Origin: Streptomyces pristinaespiralis
GTDB taxonomy: Bacteria > Actinomycetota > Actinomycetes > Streptomycetales > Streptomycetaceae
Length of the DNA stretch: 64,000 nt
Reading direction: 5' to 3'
Assembly (NCBI RefSeq): GCF_001278075.1
Contig: NZ_CP011340.1
Coordinates: 5,763,501-5,827,500, forward strand
Translations under genes and position numbers: made by a program
In this document: one piece after another, positions 11,984 to 19,429 of the stretch
Layout of the letters: each line of letters opens with the position of its first letter
How positions within the stretch are numbered: the first letter of the stretch is position 1
The notes under the pieces: model-generated
The model's database searches: none
The model's input: only the letters and a program-made list of their open reading frames with translations
What the model was told of the DNA's origin: nothing

Positions 11984-12056
11984 GGGGCTATAGCTCAGTT
12001 GGTAGAGCGCCTGCATGGCATGCAGGAGGTCAGGAGTTCAATTCTCCTTAGCTCCA
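11984..12056 (+). tRNA. tRNA-Ala (anticodon GGC)
   Basis: The 73-base sequence folds as a cloverleaf with acceptor GGGGCTA/TAGCTCC, a D-arm with AGTTGGTA loop, anticodon stem CCTGC/GCAGG with loop ATGGCAT (GGC anticodon), variable AGGTC and a T-arm AGGAG-TTCAATT-CTCCT. A73 is followed by CAA, so CCA is not encoded and must be added after RNase Z cleavage. A TAAAGT -10-like box is at 11942-11947. Confidence 0.98.
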
Positions 12057-12063
12057 CAATCGG

Positions 12064-12818: not shown

Positions 12819-12891
12819 GGGGCTATAGCTCAGTTGGTAGAGCGCCTGCATGGCATGCAGGAGGTCAGGAGTTCAATTCTCCTTAGCTCCA
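12819..12891 (+). tRNA. tRNA-Ala (anticodon GGC), second identical copy
   Basis: All 73 bases match the copy at 11984-12056, including the GGC anticodon and the absence of an encoded CCA. The flanking sequences differ, so this is a gene duplication rather than a duplicated larger block. Confidence 0.98.
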
Positions 12892-12955: not shown

Positions 12956-14551
12956 TCAACTACGGCCGCTGCCAAGGGCCTTGCGGCTGATGCTGGGGAG
13001 CGCCGGGCGTGCGGGAGGCGGCGTCGGGCCCGGGGAGGGCACCTGCTCGATCCGCATGGCGAGTGCGGGACAGCGGCGTACGGCCCGCTGCGCGCGGCCC
13101 CGCATGTGCATGGGAACCATGGCGTCGGCCACCGACGGGTATCCGTCGGGGTTGAGCCGGATCAGCTCCGGGATGATGTCGGCGCACAGACCGTGGCCCT
13201 GACAGAGCGTCCAGTCGACGAAGATCTTCTCGCCGCTGGGGATCGACTCCTCCGCCTCTTCGTAGCCCGGCAGCGGCAGGGGCAGCACACCTGTGGTGTC
13301 ACGCCCGCAGCCGCCGTGCAGCACGTGCGCCGCCAGGTCGTCCGTGAAGGCGGACAGCGTGGAGGCGAAGAACCGCGCAGAACCGTCGGGGTGTTTGCAG
13401 GCGCCACGTCCCTTGACCGCCTGGGTGACCTCACGCAGGGCCTCCAGAGCCGCCGGCCCGCCGCCGTTCATCACATCGGCCAGACCGCCGGCCGCCGCGG
13501 GCAGGCCGAGCTTGCAGGGGCCGCACTGGCCGGCCGTCTCCGCGGCCAGCCAGTTGGCCACCCGCAGCGCCTCGCCCAGCGGGCAGGTCTCCGGACCGAT
13601 CGGCAGGATCGCGCCCGCGCCCAGGGCGCCGCCGACGGAAGCCAGGGACTCCTTGGACACGACCGCCTCGTGGACCGCGGCCGCGTCGATCCAGTTGCCG
13701 TGGTAGCCGCCGGTGAGCACCCCCTGTGGCTGCGGCGGGGCGCCCGCCAGCTGGAGCACGTACCGCAGCGGCACGCCCGTCGGCACCTCGACGACCATCG
13801 GCCGCGCCACCGCGCCGGAGATCGTCAGCATGACCGTGCCCGGTTCGGAGTCGAGGCCGGTGTGGCTGTAGCGGCGGGCGCCGATCCGCGCGGCGACGGC
13901 GAGCTGCGCGAACGTCTCCGCGTTGGACAGCAGCGTCGGAGCGCCGCCGACGCCCGTCTCCGCGGCGCGCACGCGGCGGCCCGGCGGCAGCGCGGGACCG
14001 CCGTTGACGGCGCGGATGACGGAGGACGCCTCGCCGGAGACCATCCGCTCCGGGGTGCGCACCACGCGGGCGCGCAGGGCCTGGCCGCGACGGTCCGAGA
14101 GGCCGCGCTCGGCGAGCGCGGCGCGCATGGAGATCTCGGTCGAGTTGCGGGTGACCGCGACGACGAGGGTCCGTGCGCCGAGCGCCTCAGCGGCGAGCAG
14201 CGCGCCGTCGAGGATGAGGTGCGGCGCCCGGTTGAGCAGCACCGTGTCCTTGCGGCAGGCCGGCTCGCCCTCGCTGCCGTTGACGACGACCACCGGCCGT
14301 ATGCCGCGCCGGATGGCGGACTTGGCGACGGCCCGCAGTTTCTTGCCGAAGGGGAAGCCCGCGCCGCCGCGGCCGGTGAGGGATATGTCCTCCGCGAGCT
14401 GTGCGAGCCGCTCGCCGCTCACGGGCTCGAGCGGCCCGTGCACCTTCAGGTGCATGGGCAGGTCGAGGCGGTCGACGAGGTCGAAACCCTGCGTCAGCTG
14501 GGGGAGGCCGACGACGCGGACCTCCGGGACGTCGGGGAGGGGCGCGTTCAC
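12956..14551 (-). CDS. NuoF-like FMN/NAD(P)H oxidoreductase fused to a P450-type ferredoxin
   Basis: This 531-residue protein resembles the 51-kDa (NuoF) subunit of complex I. It has GRGGAGFPFGKK (FMN/NADH loop, about residue 60), VVVNGSEGEPACRKD (about 87) and an SLBB-like middle. The cluster motif reads ETAGQCGPCKLG near 341; canonical NuoF has ESCGxCxPC, so the first of its cluster cysteines is Ala. One more Cys follows in GRGACKHPDG. The C-terminus adds a ferredoxin of the type that serves cytochromes P450 (CQGHGLCAD near 450, RRCPAL near 495), probably holding a [3Fe-4S] or [4Fe-4S] cluster. GTG 14551 overlaps the stop of the upstream haem-membrane-protein gene (GTGA), so the two are translated together. 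It probably feeds electrons from NAD(P)H to that membrane partner. Confidence 0.88.
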   Translation of the reverse strand: MNAPLPDVPEVRVVGLPQLTQGFDLVDRLDLPMHLKVHGPLEPVSGERLAQLAEDISLTGRGGAGFPFGKKLRAVAKSAIRRGIRPVVVVNGSEGEPACRKDTVLLNRAPHLILDGALLAAEALGARTLVVAVTRNSTEISMRAALAERGLSDRRGQALRARVVRTPERMVSGEASSVIRAVNGGPALPPGRRVRAAETGVGGAPTLLSNAETFAQLAVAARIGARRYSHTGLDSEPGTVMLTISGAVARPMVVEVPTGVPLRYVLQLAGAPPQPQGVLTGGYHGNWIDAAAVHEAVVSKESLASVGGALGAGAILPIGPETCPLGEALRVANWLAAETAGQCGPCKLGLPAAAGGLADVMNGGGPAALEALREVTQAVKGRGACKHPDGSARFFASTLSAFTDDLAAHVLHGGCGRDTTGVLPLPLPGYEEAEESIPSGEKIFVDWTLCQGHGLCADIIPELIRLNPDGYPSVADAMVPMHMRGRAQRAVRRCPALAMRIEQVPSPGPTPPPARPALPSISRKALGSGRS

Positions 14552-16146
14552 GGTCGTTCTCCTGCTGGTGCGTGCCAGGGCTCTCCGGCCGGGGGCGGGA
14601 AGAGGGGGCCGGGCATTGGCGCCGTCTCGTCGTACGCAGGGACGTTTCCGTTGTCGTACGAGGACCGGTCGCCGTACGGGGCTGCGGGTGCGGGATCGGT
14701 CAGAGGTGTGTCGTAGGCCGCGGGCGGCGGGTAGCCGCCGGTGGCGTCGTACGCGGCGGAGGGCGCCGCGTAGGCGGCCGTCGCGTCGGGGGCGGGGAAG
14801 GCGCCGGTGTCGTAGGTGGGGACGCCGGTGTCGTAGGAGGCGGGCGCATCGAGCGGTGAGGAGCCGCCGTACGGTGCCGGCGGCGCGTCGTACGAGGGTG
14901 CGGCGTCGAAGAGCGGCGGGGGAGGGGTGTCGTAGAGGGGCCGGGCCGGGTCGGGCCGCACCGACTGCGCCGGGCGGGGCGGCGAGGGCGTCGGCCAGCT
15001 GCCCGTCCGCGGGCCGGTCTCCGACACCACGGGTATCTCCTCGGTCATCGGCACGCGCTCGGCGAGCGGCGCCGACGGTTCGCCCGCCAGCGAGACCGCG
15101 CGGTAGGCGGCGGACATGCCGGTGCGGCGGCCGCCGGTGAGGTTGCCGCCGTCAGGCGCGAACGCCGGCTCCTCCTCCTGAGGGCGCGGGGCCTCGTAGA
15201 GCTGCGGCGAAGGGGCGGCGAGCCGCGGGGGCTGCGCGCGCGCCTGGCCGAGGGGCGGCTGGAAGTCCTGTTCGTACGGGCGCTGTGACGGCACGCCGTT
15301 CATTGCGCCGGTCATACGGTCCACGCGGTCCATGCGGTCCATGCCTGCGGGTACGGTCGCGCGGCCCGTCCCGTTCATTCCGCTGACGCCGGGAAGAGGG
15401 GCGGTGGCGAGATCGCGCTGCGCCTGCTCGTCCGCGGCGGCCGGTCCGGCGGCGCCGGTCAGGGACATGATCTTCGCGGCGATCCGGCGCTGAACCGGAC
15501 GCGGCATCATGCGTACGGAGACCGCCGCGGCGACTCCGAGGAGGGCCAGGCAGTACATGGTCACGACCCACGTCGCGGCCGGCCGGCCGGCGTAGAGGCC
15601 GTGGACCAGGGCGAAGCACCAGGCCGGGTACGCCAGCATGTGCAGCGGCCGCCAGCGGCCGGCGACCTTGATGTTGCCTGCCAGCGCGCTGCGGAGGGCG
15701 CCGGTCGTGCCGGCCACGACCATGAGGAACCCGGCCAGCGAGCCGAAGCCGATGAGTGCCTCCGTGCCGGTGACGCCCAGGCCGAACGGGATCATCGCGC
15801 CGAGCAGTGACACATGTCCCAGCGACACCTTCACCGTGGCGTGCAGCAGCAGGAACCCGAGCGAGGCGATGGCGGTCGCCCGGTGGATGCCCTGCGCGAG
15901 CAGCCGGTGGCGGGGCGAGAGCAGCAGCCGGTCGGTGGCGATCAGGCCCCAGGCGACGGAGGCGGTCAGGGACACCAGGGAGAGGACCCCGGTGGTGAAG
16001 TCGAGCGCGGCGCGGAAACTGTCGCTTCCTCCGACGGCGAGCAGGGGTAGGAGCACCAACGCGGCCACGGAGATGCCGCCTTGCACCTGGCGGCTGAGTC
16101 CGCGGCCCGGACCGGGCGACAAACGCATCTTGAGACGAGGGTTCAT
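14548..16146 (-). CDS. Ferric-reductase-like haem b membrane protein with long Pro/Tyr-rich tail
   Basis: This 532-residue protein has about six hydrophobic helices in its first 220 residues. Two histidine pairs with ferric-reductase/NADPH-oxidase spacing are visible: HRATAIASLGFLLLH (H-x13-H) and HMLAYPAWCFALVH (H-x12-H), which predict two stacked b-haems across the membrane. The flavin domain normally fused to such proteins is absent. Instead a disordered tail of about 300 residues rich in Pro, Ala, Tyr and Asp follows, with recurring YDT and YDA units. The overlapping downstream gene encodes a flavin/iron-sulphur protein that could supply electrons. ATG 16146 has GGAG 8 bases upstream on the minus strand. 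Confidence 0.88.
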   Translation of the reverse strand: MNPRLKMRLSPGPGRGLSRQVQGGISVAALVLLPLLAVGGSDSFRAALDFTTGVLSLVSLTASVAWGLIATDRLLLSPRHRLLAQGIHRATAIASLGFLLLHATVKVSLGHVSLLGAMIPFGLGVTGTEALIGFGSLAGFLMVVAGTTGALRSALAGNIKVAGRWRPLHMLAYPAWCFALVHGLYAGRPAATWVVTMYCLALLGVAAAVSVRMMPRPVQRRIAAKIMSLTGAAGPAAADEQAQRDLATAPLPGVSGMNGTGRATVPAGMDRMDRVDRMTGAMNGVPSQRPYEQDFQPPLGQARAQPPRLAAPSPQLYEAPRPQEEEPAFAPDGGNLTGGRRTGMSAAYRAVSLAGEPSAPLAERVPMTEEIPVVSETGPRTGSWPTPSPPRPAQSVRPDPARPLYDTPPPPLFDAAPSYDAPPAPYGGSSPLDAPASYDTGVPTYDTGAFPAPDATAAYAAPSAAYDATGGYPPPAAYDTPLTDPAPAAPYGDRSSYDNGNVPAYDETAPMPGPLFPPPAGEPWHAPAGERP

Positions 16147-16450: not shown

Positions 16451-16512
16451 CCGACGGATGAGAAATCCGGTCGGAATCGGCGCGGCGTCCCCTCCTGTGC
16501 GAGGGGATTTTT
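16451..16512 (+). promoter_or_regulatory. leuS transcription attenuator
   Basis: Two hairpins follow the leader peptide. The first is CCGAC-GGAT (16451-16459) with ATCC-G-GTCGG (16465-16474). The second is an intrinsic terminator, CCCCTC (16489-16494) with GAGGGG (16501-16506), followed by ATTTTT. A leader segment, GCCGCGC (16435-16441), can also pair with GCGCGGC (16480-16486), and this helix would be blocked by a ribosome stalled on the Leu codons. The exact antiterminator needs folding to resolve. Confidence 0.75.
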
Positions 16513-16576
16513 CATTTCCCCTGGTACGTGAATCGGCTGGCAGTCGGCAGAGACGATCGATGGAGCTTCAAGGATC

Positions 16577-19429
<2,853 letters not shown>

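Follow-up and report, generated by a model that had tools for sequence, protein, structure and literature searches.

A NuoF-ferredoxin protein paired with a predicted di-haem membrane protein: a candidate electron-export system of Streptomyces

We analysed a 64,000-nucleotide stretch of the Streptomyces pristinaespiralis chromosome (NZ_CP011340.1, positions 5,763,501 to 5,827,500; hereafter the window), in which two leftward genes at 5.78 Mb encode a NuoF-like flavoprotein (NUO) and a six-helix membrane protein (MEM). The two open reading frames (ORFs) share four bases, a GTGA stop/start overlap, and the translationally coupled pair described in an original prediction from the DNA letters is borne out by the ORF coordinates and the sequence. 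The features are listed below by their positions in the window.

12956..14551, minus strand: NUO, NuoF-like NAD(P)H-flavin mononucleotide (FMN) flavoprotein with a C-terminal ferredoxin (531 aa, GTG start)
13901..14389, minus strand: Complex1_51K (FMN/NAD(P)H) domain of NUO, residues 55-217 (PF01512, E 2.7e-30)
13730..13828, minus strand: SLBB domain of NUO, residues 242-274 (PF10531, E 7.9e-7)
13325..13570, minus strand: N3-type iron-sulphur (Fe-S) domain of NUO, residues 328-409 (PF10589, NADH_4Fe-4S, E 9.6e-15; alignment A3)
13049..13225, minus strand: ferredoxin domain of NUO, residues 443-501, with CxxHxxC...CP, a [3Fe-4S]-type motif (PF13459, Fer4_15, E 2.6e-16)
14548..14551, minus strand: GTGA stop/start overlap of MEM and NUO (sequence)
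14548..16146, minus strand: MEM, six-transmembrane (TM), predicted di-haem b-type ferric-reductase-domain (FRD) protein with a long disordered-looking tail (532 aa, ATG start)
15508..16095, minus strand: TM domain of MEM, about residues 18-213 (model helices and invariant histidines)
15883-15885, 15841-15843, 15640-15642 and 15601-15603, minus strand: predicted haem ligands H88, H102, H169 and H182 of MEM
14551..15471, minus strand: C-terminal tail of MEM, Pro/Tyr/Asp-rich, predicted cytosolic (sequence)
16577..19429, plus strand: leuS, divergent neighbour, a conserved address with no part in the mechanism

NUO shows the NuoF fold, and its domain order and fold place it in the Complex1_51K/SLBB/NADH_4Fe-4S superfamily. 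It differs from the NuoF of complex I in falling below the cut-off of the NuoF equivalog (161 bits against 558.65; NCBIfam TIGR01959), in lacking the first N3 cysteine, in carrying an additional ferredoxin domain and in having MEM and leuS as conserved neighbours. Three of the four canonical N3 cysteines are present (C343, C346 and C385, as matched to the motif by reading the alignments), and the first is Ala in 12/12 rows of alignment A3, unlike the four-cysteine site of complex I. In the GEE(T) motif, Ala replaces the second Glu in NUO, and Glu is kept in 2 of 12 rows. This Glu may affect specificity in E. coli NuoF; a literature search on this point gave nothing, and we claim no preference for NADH or NADPH. 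Another NuoF-type gene, 29% identical to NUO, lies at 3.82 Mb and probably belongs to complex I. The ferredoxin had been read as P450-type, and the Pfam domains and the cofactor motif agree: C450, H453, C456 and C494-P495 are invariant in 54/54 rows, and the sequence CQGHGLC...CP follows the P450-type motif CXX?XXC(X)nCP, in which the "?" position is non-Cys (PMC6237146), so that a [3Fe-4S] cluster is predicted. His-type ferredoxins are described there as isolated in the [3Fe-4S] form and as having comparatively positive potentials (-31 mV for an M. tuberculosis example; -340 to +230 mV for an M. marinum set; PMC6237146).

The AlphaFold model of MEM has six long helices (residues 19-37, 42-70, 78-108, 127-154, 172-185 and 192-213), and MEM shows the FRD arrangement of six TM helices with bis-histidine pairs on TM3 and TM5. 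The pairs are those named originally, HX13H (H88/H102) and HX12H (H169/H182), and they are invariant in 69/69 aligned rows and in 22/22 rows from three architectures, the window being included in both counts. Short FRD proteins mostly retain two or three histidines (PMC3591440), whereas MEM keeps all four, so two haems are expected. In helix number and di-haem motif, and probably in its modelled fold, MEM resembles NADPH oxidases (NOX), bacterial SpNOX and ferric reductases; unlike NOX, it has no C-terminal FAD/NADPH domain, Pfam finding none in the chain just as had been proposed, and the NuoF-ferredoxin protein would substitute for that domain in trans. A PDB sequence search gave no match with either MEM or its alignment A1 as the query. 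The tail, probably cytosolic because there are six TM helices, carries the motifs S-x-x-YRAVS and P-x-AGEPW in 90 and 113, respectively, of the 120 listed relatives.

The two genes travel together far beyond chance. The window belongs to what we call group A, in which MEM-NUO with fused ferredoxin lies beside a divergent leuS. In the best 80 named loci out of 541 confirmed (all but one carry the label Streptomyces, 79 in number, the other being "Actinobacteria bacterium OK074"), MEM lies upstream of NUO on the same strand together with the divergent leuS in 74, with 357-627 bases between the matched stretches, and in the remaining six the contig ends 127-1735 bases upstream of NUO. The pairing also extends beyond close relatives, to plasmids of other genera: 58 of 64 NuoF-like matches have a same-strand MEM no more than 2.5 kb upstream (the window, loci of other genomes and named plasmids), a count that excludes four more distant NuoF-type outgroup matches (L149-L152), none with MEM. 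Of the exceptions, L006, L010 and L025 are at contig ends (L010 with a partial MEM), and MEM was not detected at L005, L028 and L042. The last (G049:C1:132000-146000) is a second NUO copy, 73-74% identical and away from leuS.

Two further architectures were found. Group B (loci L029-L041 and the named plasmid L065, which carries the same arrangement) likewise has MEM-NUO with fused ferredoxin, and here an intact cluster joins DUF4142, DUF1996, MEM, NUO-ferredoxin, Lipoprotein_15 and a Met/His-rich lipoprotein. Among the 13 loci L029-L041, tblastn with queries from L036 and L039 matched Lipoprotein_15 in 12, DUF1996 in 11, DUF4142 in 10 and the Met/His-rich lipoprotein in six, the Pfam identities being verified on examples. 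A two-component system considered for group B was dropped, Pfam showing DUF1996 and DUF4142 instead; the annotated L065 is the exception. Group C (L005-L024 and named plasmids of Cnuibacter, Rhodococcus and Arthrobacter) has ApbE in 16 of 20 loci; in 19 of 20 the NuoF-like gene is directly followed by a ferredoxin encoded as its own ORF, and the motif of each of these ferredoxins has a non-Cys residue. In each of the three plasmid records of this group that were examined ApbE, a "ferric reductase-like" protein, a NuoF-like protein and a "ferredoxin" are annotated consecutively, and a VIT-family gene lies within the displayed stretch. Some records of the plasmid systems L066, L067 and L068 have metal P-type ATPase or multicopper oxidase genes nearby, and these neighbours together suggest metal handling. 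No FMN_bind was found near the ApbE of group C among the candidate ORFs scanned (L067, L068, L023, L022, L043, L012 and L020). The group C MEM of L008, L011, L012, L017, L021, L024 and L043 has, besides one more hydrophobic segment, another domain at the C-terminus in which a GGVxM(T/S)-like motif occurs; that of L012 has no match in Pfam, and this domain could be the extracytoplasmic partner of ApbE in these systems.

The ferredoxin, separate in group C and fused in groups A and B, thus forms a Rosetta-stone pattern. In a tree of 68 NUO rows (groups assigned by hand, four distant NuoF-type rows as outgroup, with a warning of long branches), group A (96/96) is nested in a fused-ferredoxin clade A+B (100/100) that sits among the ApbE-linked group C, and therefore the simplest origin of the form in the window would be an ApbE-linked system such as those of Meheust et al. 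2021. Those authors report NuoF-like proteins in 31 "MsrQ-like" (PF01794) flavinylation gene clusters (PMC8238504), and the clusters in Actinobacteria resemble our locus in pairing an FRD membrane protein with an adjacent NuoF-like NAD(P)H dehydrogenase and in a presumed export of electrons to extracytoplasmic partners. The families named in the original prediction are known, as it said, and the general combination that it inferred is prior art, of which our pair is a variant. MsrQ-like clusters are, however, defined by FMN-binding or ApbE genes, and the genome of the window has no FMN_bind or ApbE match at E 0.001. What is special here is the fused [3Fe-4S]-type ferredoxin, the undetected flavinylation machinery, the leuS address and the co-inherited partners, of which Lipoprotein_15 and DUF1996 have comparative support.

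These partners are encoded elsewhere in the genome. A four-repeat Lipoprotein_15 protein is encoded at 0.91 Mb and a second Lipoprotein_15 protein at 5.42 Mb; they share 49% and 36-39% identity, respectively, with that of group B. DUF1996 proteins are encoded at 1.00, 1.59 and 6.16 Mb, the last matching the DUF1996 of group B at 68% identity over 303 aa, and its gene adjoins a homologue (45% over 91 aa) of the Met/His-rich lipoprotein (L166:5791-10045). The Lipoprotein_15 gene at 0.91 Mb and the DUF1996 genes at 1.59 and 6.16 Mb are thus 0.4-4.9 Mb from the pair. On the other side of the 6.16 Mb DUF1996 gene are a response regulator and a likely kinase, judged from sequence starts only, which are possibly a sensor of the same process. 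Judged by eye, proteins of both families start with an export signal, and a lipobox and Cx3C pairs are present in Lipoprotein_15. In fungi, DUF1996 deletions are described as more sensitive to oxidation and to several metal ions, Cu2+ not among them (PMC4738358), a weak lead. Among its listed rows, our literature search showed neither a bacterial role for Lipoprotein_15 or DUF1996 nor a link of either to electron transfer. It also returned nothing for S. coelicolor SCO2570, 2572, 2573 and 2574, tags presumed to denote the genes studied here.

We then asked how the partners are distributed in one fixed sample of 121 Streptomyces genomes (presence at E <=1e-100 for NUO and <=1e-30 for Lipoprotein_15 and DUF1996). 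NUO is present in 95 genomes, 76 with the group A type (identity at least 62%) and 19 with the group B type only; Lipoprotein_15 is present in 102 and DUF1996 in 101. Lipoprotein_15 occurs in 95/95 NUO-positive and 7/26 NUO-negative genomes (Fisher p 1e-16) and DUF1996 in 94/95 and 7/26 (p 2e-15), p values that treat the genomes as independent, which they are not. The sole positive genome without DUF1996, G017, is in about 1140 contigs. The negatives with Lipoprotein_15 are G004, G015, G029, G041, G045, G114 and G139, and those with DUF1996 are G004, G015, G041, G045, G112, G114 and G139. Three of the 26 negatives hold remnants of the pair: a NUO fragment in G029, MEM and a NUO fragment in G041, and MEM at a contig edge in G139. 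At the decayed leuS loci, L176 (G041) has MEM beside an opposite-strand NUO fragment and L173 (G029) a NUO fragment without MEM. Because genomes lacking NUO are about 5.8 to 10.2 Mb in size, genome reduction is not the obvious cause of its absence.

Shared ancestry was taken into account with a LeuS tree that covered 84 of the 121 genomes, comprising 25/26 negatives (G045 had no LeuS match at 1e-200) and 59/95 positives, on which NUO requires 11-13 changes, depending on how remnants are coded, and Lipoprotein_15 requires 12. With G139 coded positive and G029 and G041 negative, nine independent pairs differ in NUO; Lipoprotein_15 changes in the same direction in a mean of 7.0 of them (median p 0.016) and DUF1996 in 7.9 (median p 0.008), none opposite in either case. 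When the three remnant rows were dropped, the values were 7.1/8 and 6.9/8 (median p 0.016 each). As a control, the DUF1996 paralogue from the 1.00 Mb locus of the same genome follows NUO in 2.0/9 pairs and opposes it in 3.1/9 (median p 1), and it shows no link by presence either (37/95 positive and 13/26 negative genomes, Fisher p 0.37). A Pagel-type test gave likelihood ratios of 60.5 and 57.2, of supporting value only since some rates of the dependent model were unbounded.

We propose, with a probability of roughly 0.55, that the two proteins together form a transmembrane NAD(P)H dehydrogenase, whose electrons leave the cytosol by way of two b haems and are passed to an extracytoplasmic protein set that includes Lipoprotein_15 and DUF1996. 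NUO would take a hydride from NAD(P)H onto FMN at the cytosolic face and split it into single electrons, which would pass through the N3-type Fe-S site to the fused [3Fe-4S] ferredoxin, from there to the MEM haem on the inner side (H88/H169), and by way of the outer haem (H102/H182) to the outside. This order, NAD(P)H, FMN, Fe-S, [3Fe-4S], haems, would be downhill, and the path from NAD(P)H through FMN and Fe-S to transmembrane haems drawn originally appears right as an inference. The electrons would most likely reach the secreted four-repeat Lipoprotein_15 and DUF1996 proteins, perhaps also partners of the Met/His-rich lipoprotein and DUF4142 types, and the set may act in metal or oxidative-stress redox chemistry. 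The proposal draws directly on the domains, the His and Cys motifs, the conservation of the pair, the undetected ApbE and FMN_bind, the clustering in sister loci and the co-inheritance; from these we infer the direction of flow, the docking of the ferredoxin under MEM, the transfer to secreted proteins and the terminal acceptor.

Several points weigh against this proposal, the support for which is wholly computational. MEM scores 8.7 bits against Ferric_reduct (PF01794), under the gathering score of 28, and at E 0.001 no protein of the genome matches this profile; the model is likened to NOX, STEAP and b561 cytochromes, and Foldseek gives it weak matches in the PDB (best E 0.076). Relatives aligned with it do pass the profile (L007 with 42.2 bits and L012 with 31.6), and because the window MEM falls below the cut-off while they do not, we claim its FRD-superfamily membership only through these intermediates, the four histidines and the probable fold; the ferric-reductase identity suggested originally thus stands for the relatives, and the profile does not support it for this protein by itself. 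On the partner side, our literature search turned up no redox cofactor for Lipoprotein_15 or DUF1996. Four NUO-negative genomes (G004, G015, G114 and G045) hold homologues of both, so these proteins can exist without the pair, and no remnant lies beside leuS in G004, G015 and G114, the three whose leuS locus was seen. The control consisted of one gene. Since Lipoprotein_15 and DUF1996 are clustered with MEM-NUO in group B, their co-occurrence there is partly linkage; without the group B genomes (19 rows, and 4 with both types, dropped; 61 left), Lipoprotein_15 follows NUO in 5/7 pairs (median p 0.06) and DUF1996 in 6/7 (median p 0.03), none opposite, with 1.9 same and 2.0 opposite for the control paralogue, so that the link is consistent but borderline. 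Finally, co-inheritance indicates a shared process and is not proof of electron transfer.

If no protein partner were needed, the outer haem might reduce extracellular Fe3+ or Cu2+ directly, MEM-NUO being a stand-alone metal reductase. The relation of MEM to the FRD superfamily, the VIT-family genes near the related plasmid systems, the tie of MsrQ-like clusters to VIT1 iron transport made by Meheust et al. (PMC8238504) and, for copper, the Met/His-rich lipoprotein of group B would all fit, but the co-inheritance with Lipoprotein_15 and DUF1996 would be left unexplained, and no iron-box, Zur, Nur or Rex-like pattern was found upstream of MEM in any of the 95 loci scanned, a weak negative because simple consensus patterns were used; we regard such a reductase as unlikely. 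Slightly less probable still is electron exchange within the membrane, either as an NAD(P)H:menaquinone oxidoreductase or as a quinol-linked MsrQ-type donor. MsrQ is described as a quinone-binding subunit (PMC8238504), and the four histidines of MEM are as in di-haem quinone-reactive cytochromes. MsrPQ (YedZ) with Fre is also alike in that an FRD protein is fed by a separate flavoprotein and serves a secreted protein; however, the first His, which MEM retains, is Arg in YedZ/MsrQ (PMC3591440), the donor here is NuoF-like rather than Fre, and the genome has another NuoF-type gene, the probable complex I gene at 3.82 Mb. No MsrP was recognised beside the pair by eye, and no search aimed at MsrP was made.

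We consider it quite improbable that the pair generates superoxide or H2O2 in the manner of NOX: the position of the NOX-diagnostic His-119 of NOX2 (PMC3591440), four residues after the second TM3 ligand, corresponds by spacing to K106 of MEM, which is nearly invariant in alignment A1, and the rather positive potentials of His-type [3Fe-4S] ferredoxins (PMC6237146) would disfavour one-electron reduction of O2 to superoxide. The fused ferredoxin, with its P450-partner motif, might instead mean that NUO chiefly works in the cytosol as the ferredoxin reductase of P450-type enzymes, MEM being a membrane anchor or electron sink, but NUO is strictly paired with MEM and the haem ligands of MEM are conserved, and we give this role the least credence. 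The original observation is thus confirmed and its interpretation partly supported, with export to the Lipoprotein_15/DUF1996 set as the reading we prefer.

Around the pair, the leuS leader contains a short hairpin rich in G+C (CCCCTC...GAGGGG) with a T run after it (16489-16513, plus strand). The hairpin is largely kept across 95 aligned loci, has no Rfam family match at E 0.1 and is a possible leuS attenuator. After the pair are a tRNA gene (12819-12891, 70 bits) and, about 0.8 kb beyond it, the end of a second tRNA-like match (about 12000-12059) clipped by the start of the search range, so that there are possibly two tRNA genes.

What is new is that sister loci put MEM-NUO beside secreted DUF1996, DUF4142 and Lipoprotein_15, and that the pair is co-inherited with unlinked Lipoprotein_15 and DUF1996; our literature search found no account of the fused flavinylation-free form, of its place beside leuS or of unlinked partners inherited with it. 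Tentatively, and with less confidence than in the export proposal itself, we suggest a dispersed, flavinylation-independent electron-export system of Streptomyces in which Lipoprotein_15 and DUF1996 may form an unrecognised extracytoplasmic redox or metal-handling machine. If this is true, Lipoprotein_15 and DUF1996, families present in most of the genomes of the genus that we sampled, would gain a function and a testable partner network, and an FRD protein, a NuoF module and a [3Fe-4S] ferredoxin would have been combined and recombined to export electrons from a Gram-positive cell, replacing the usual fused flavin domain and ApbE flavinylation.

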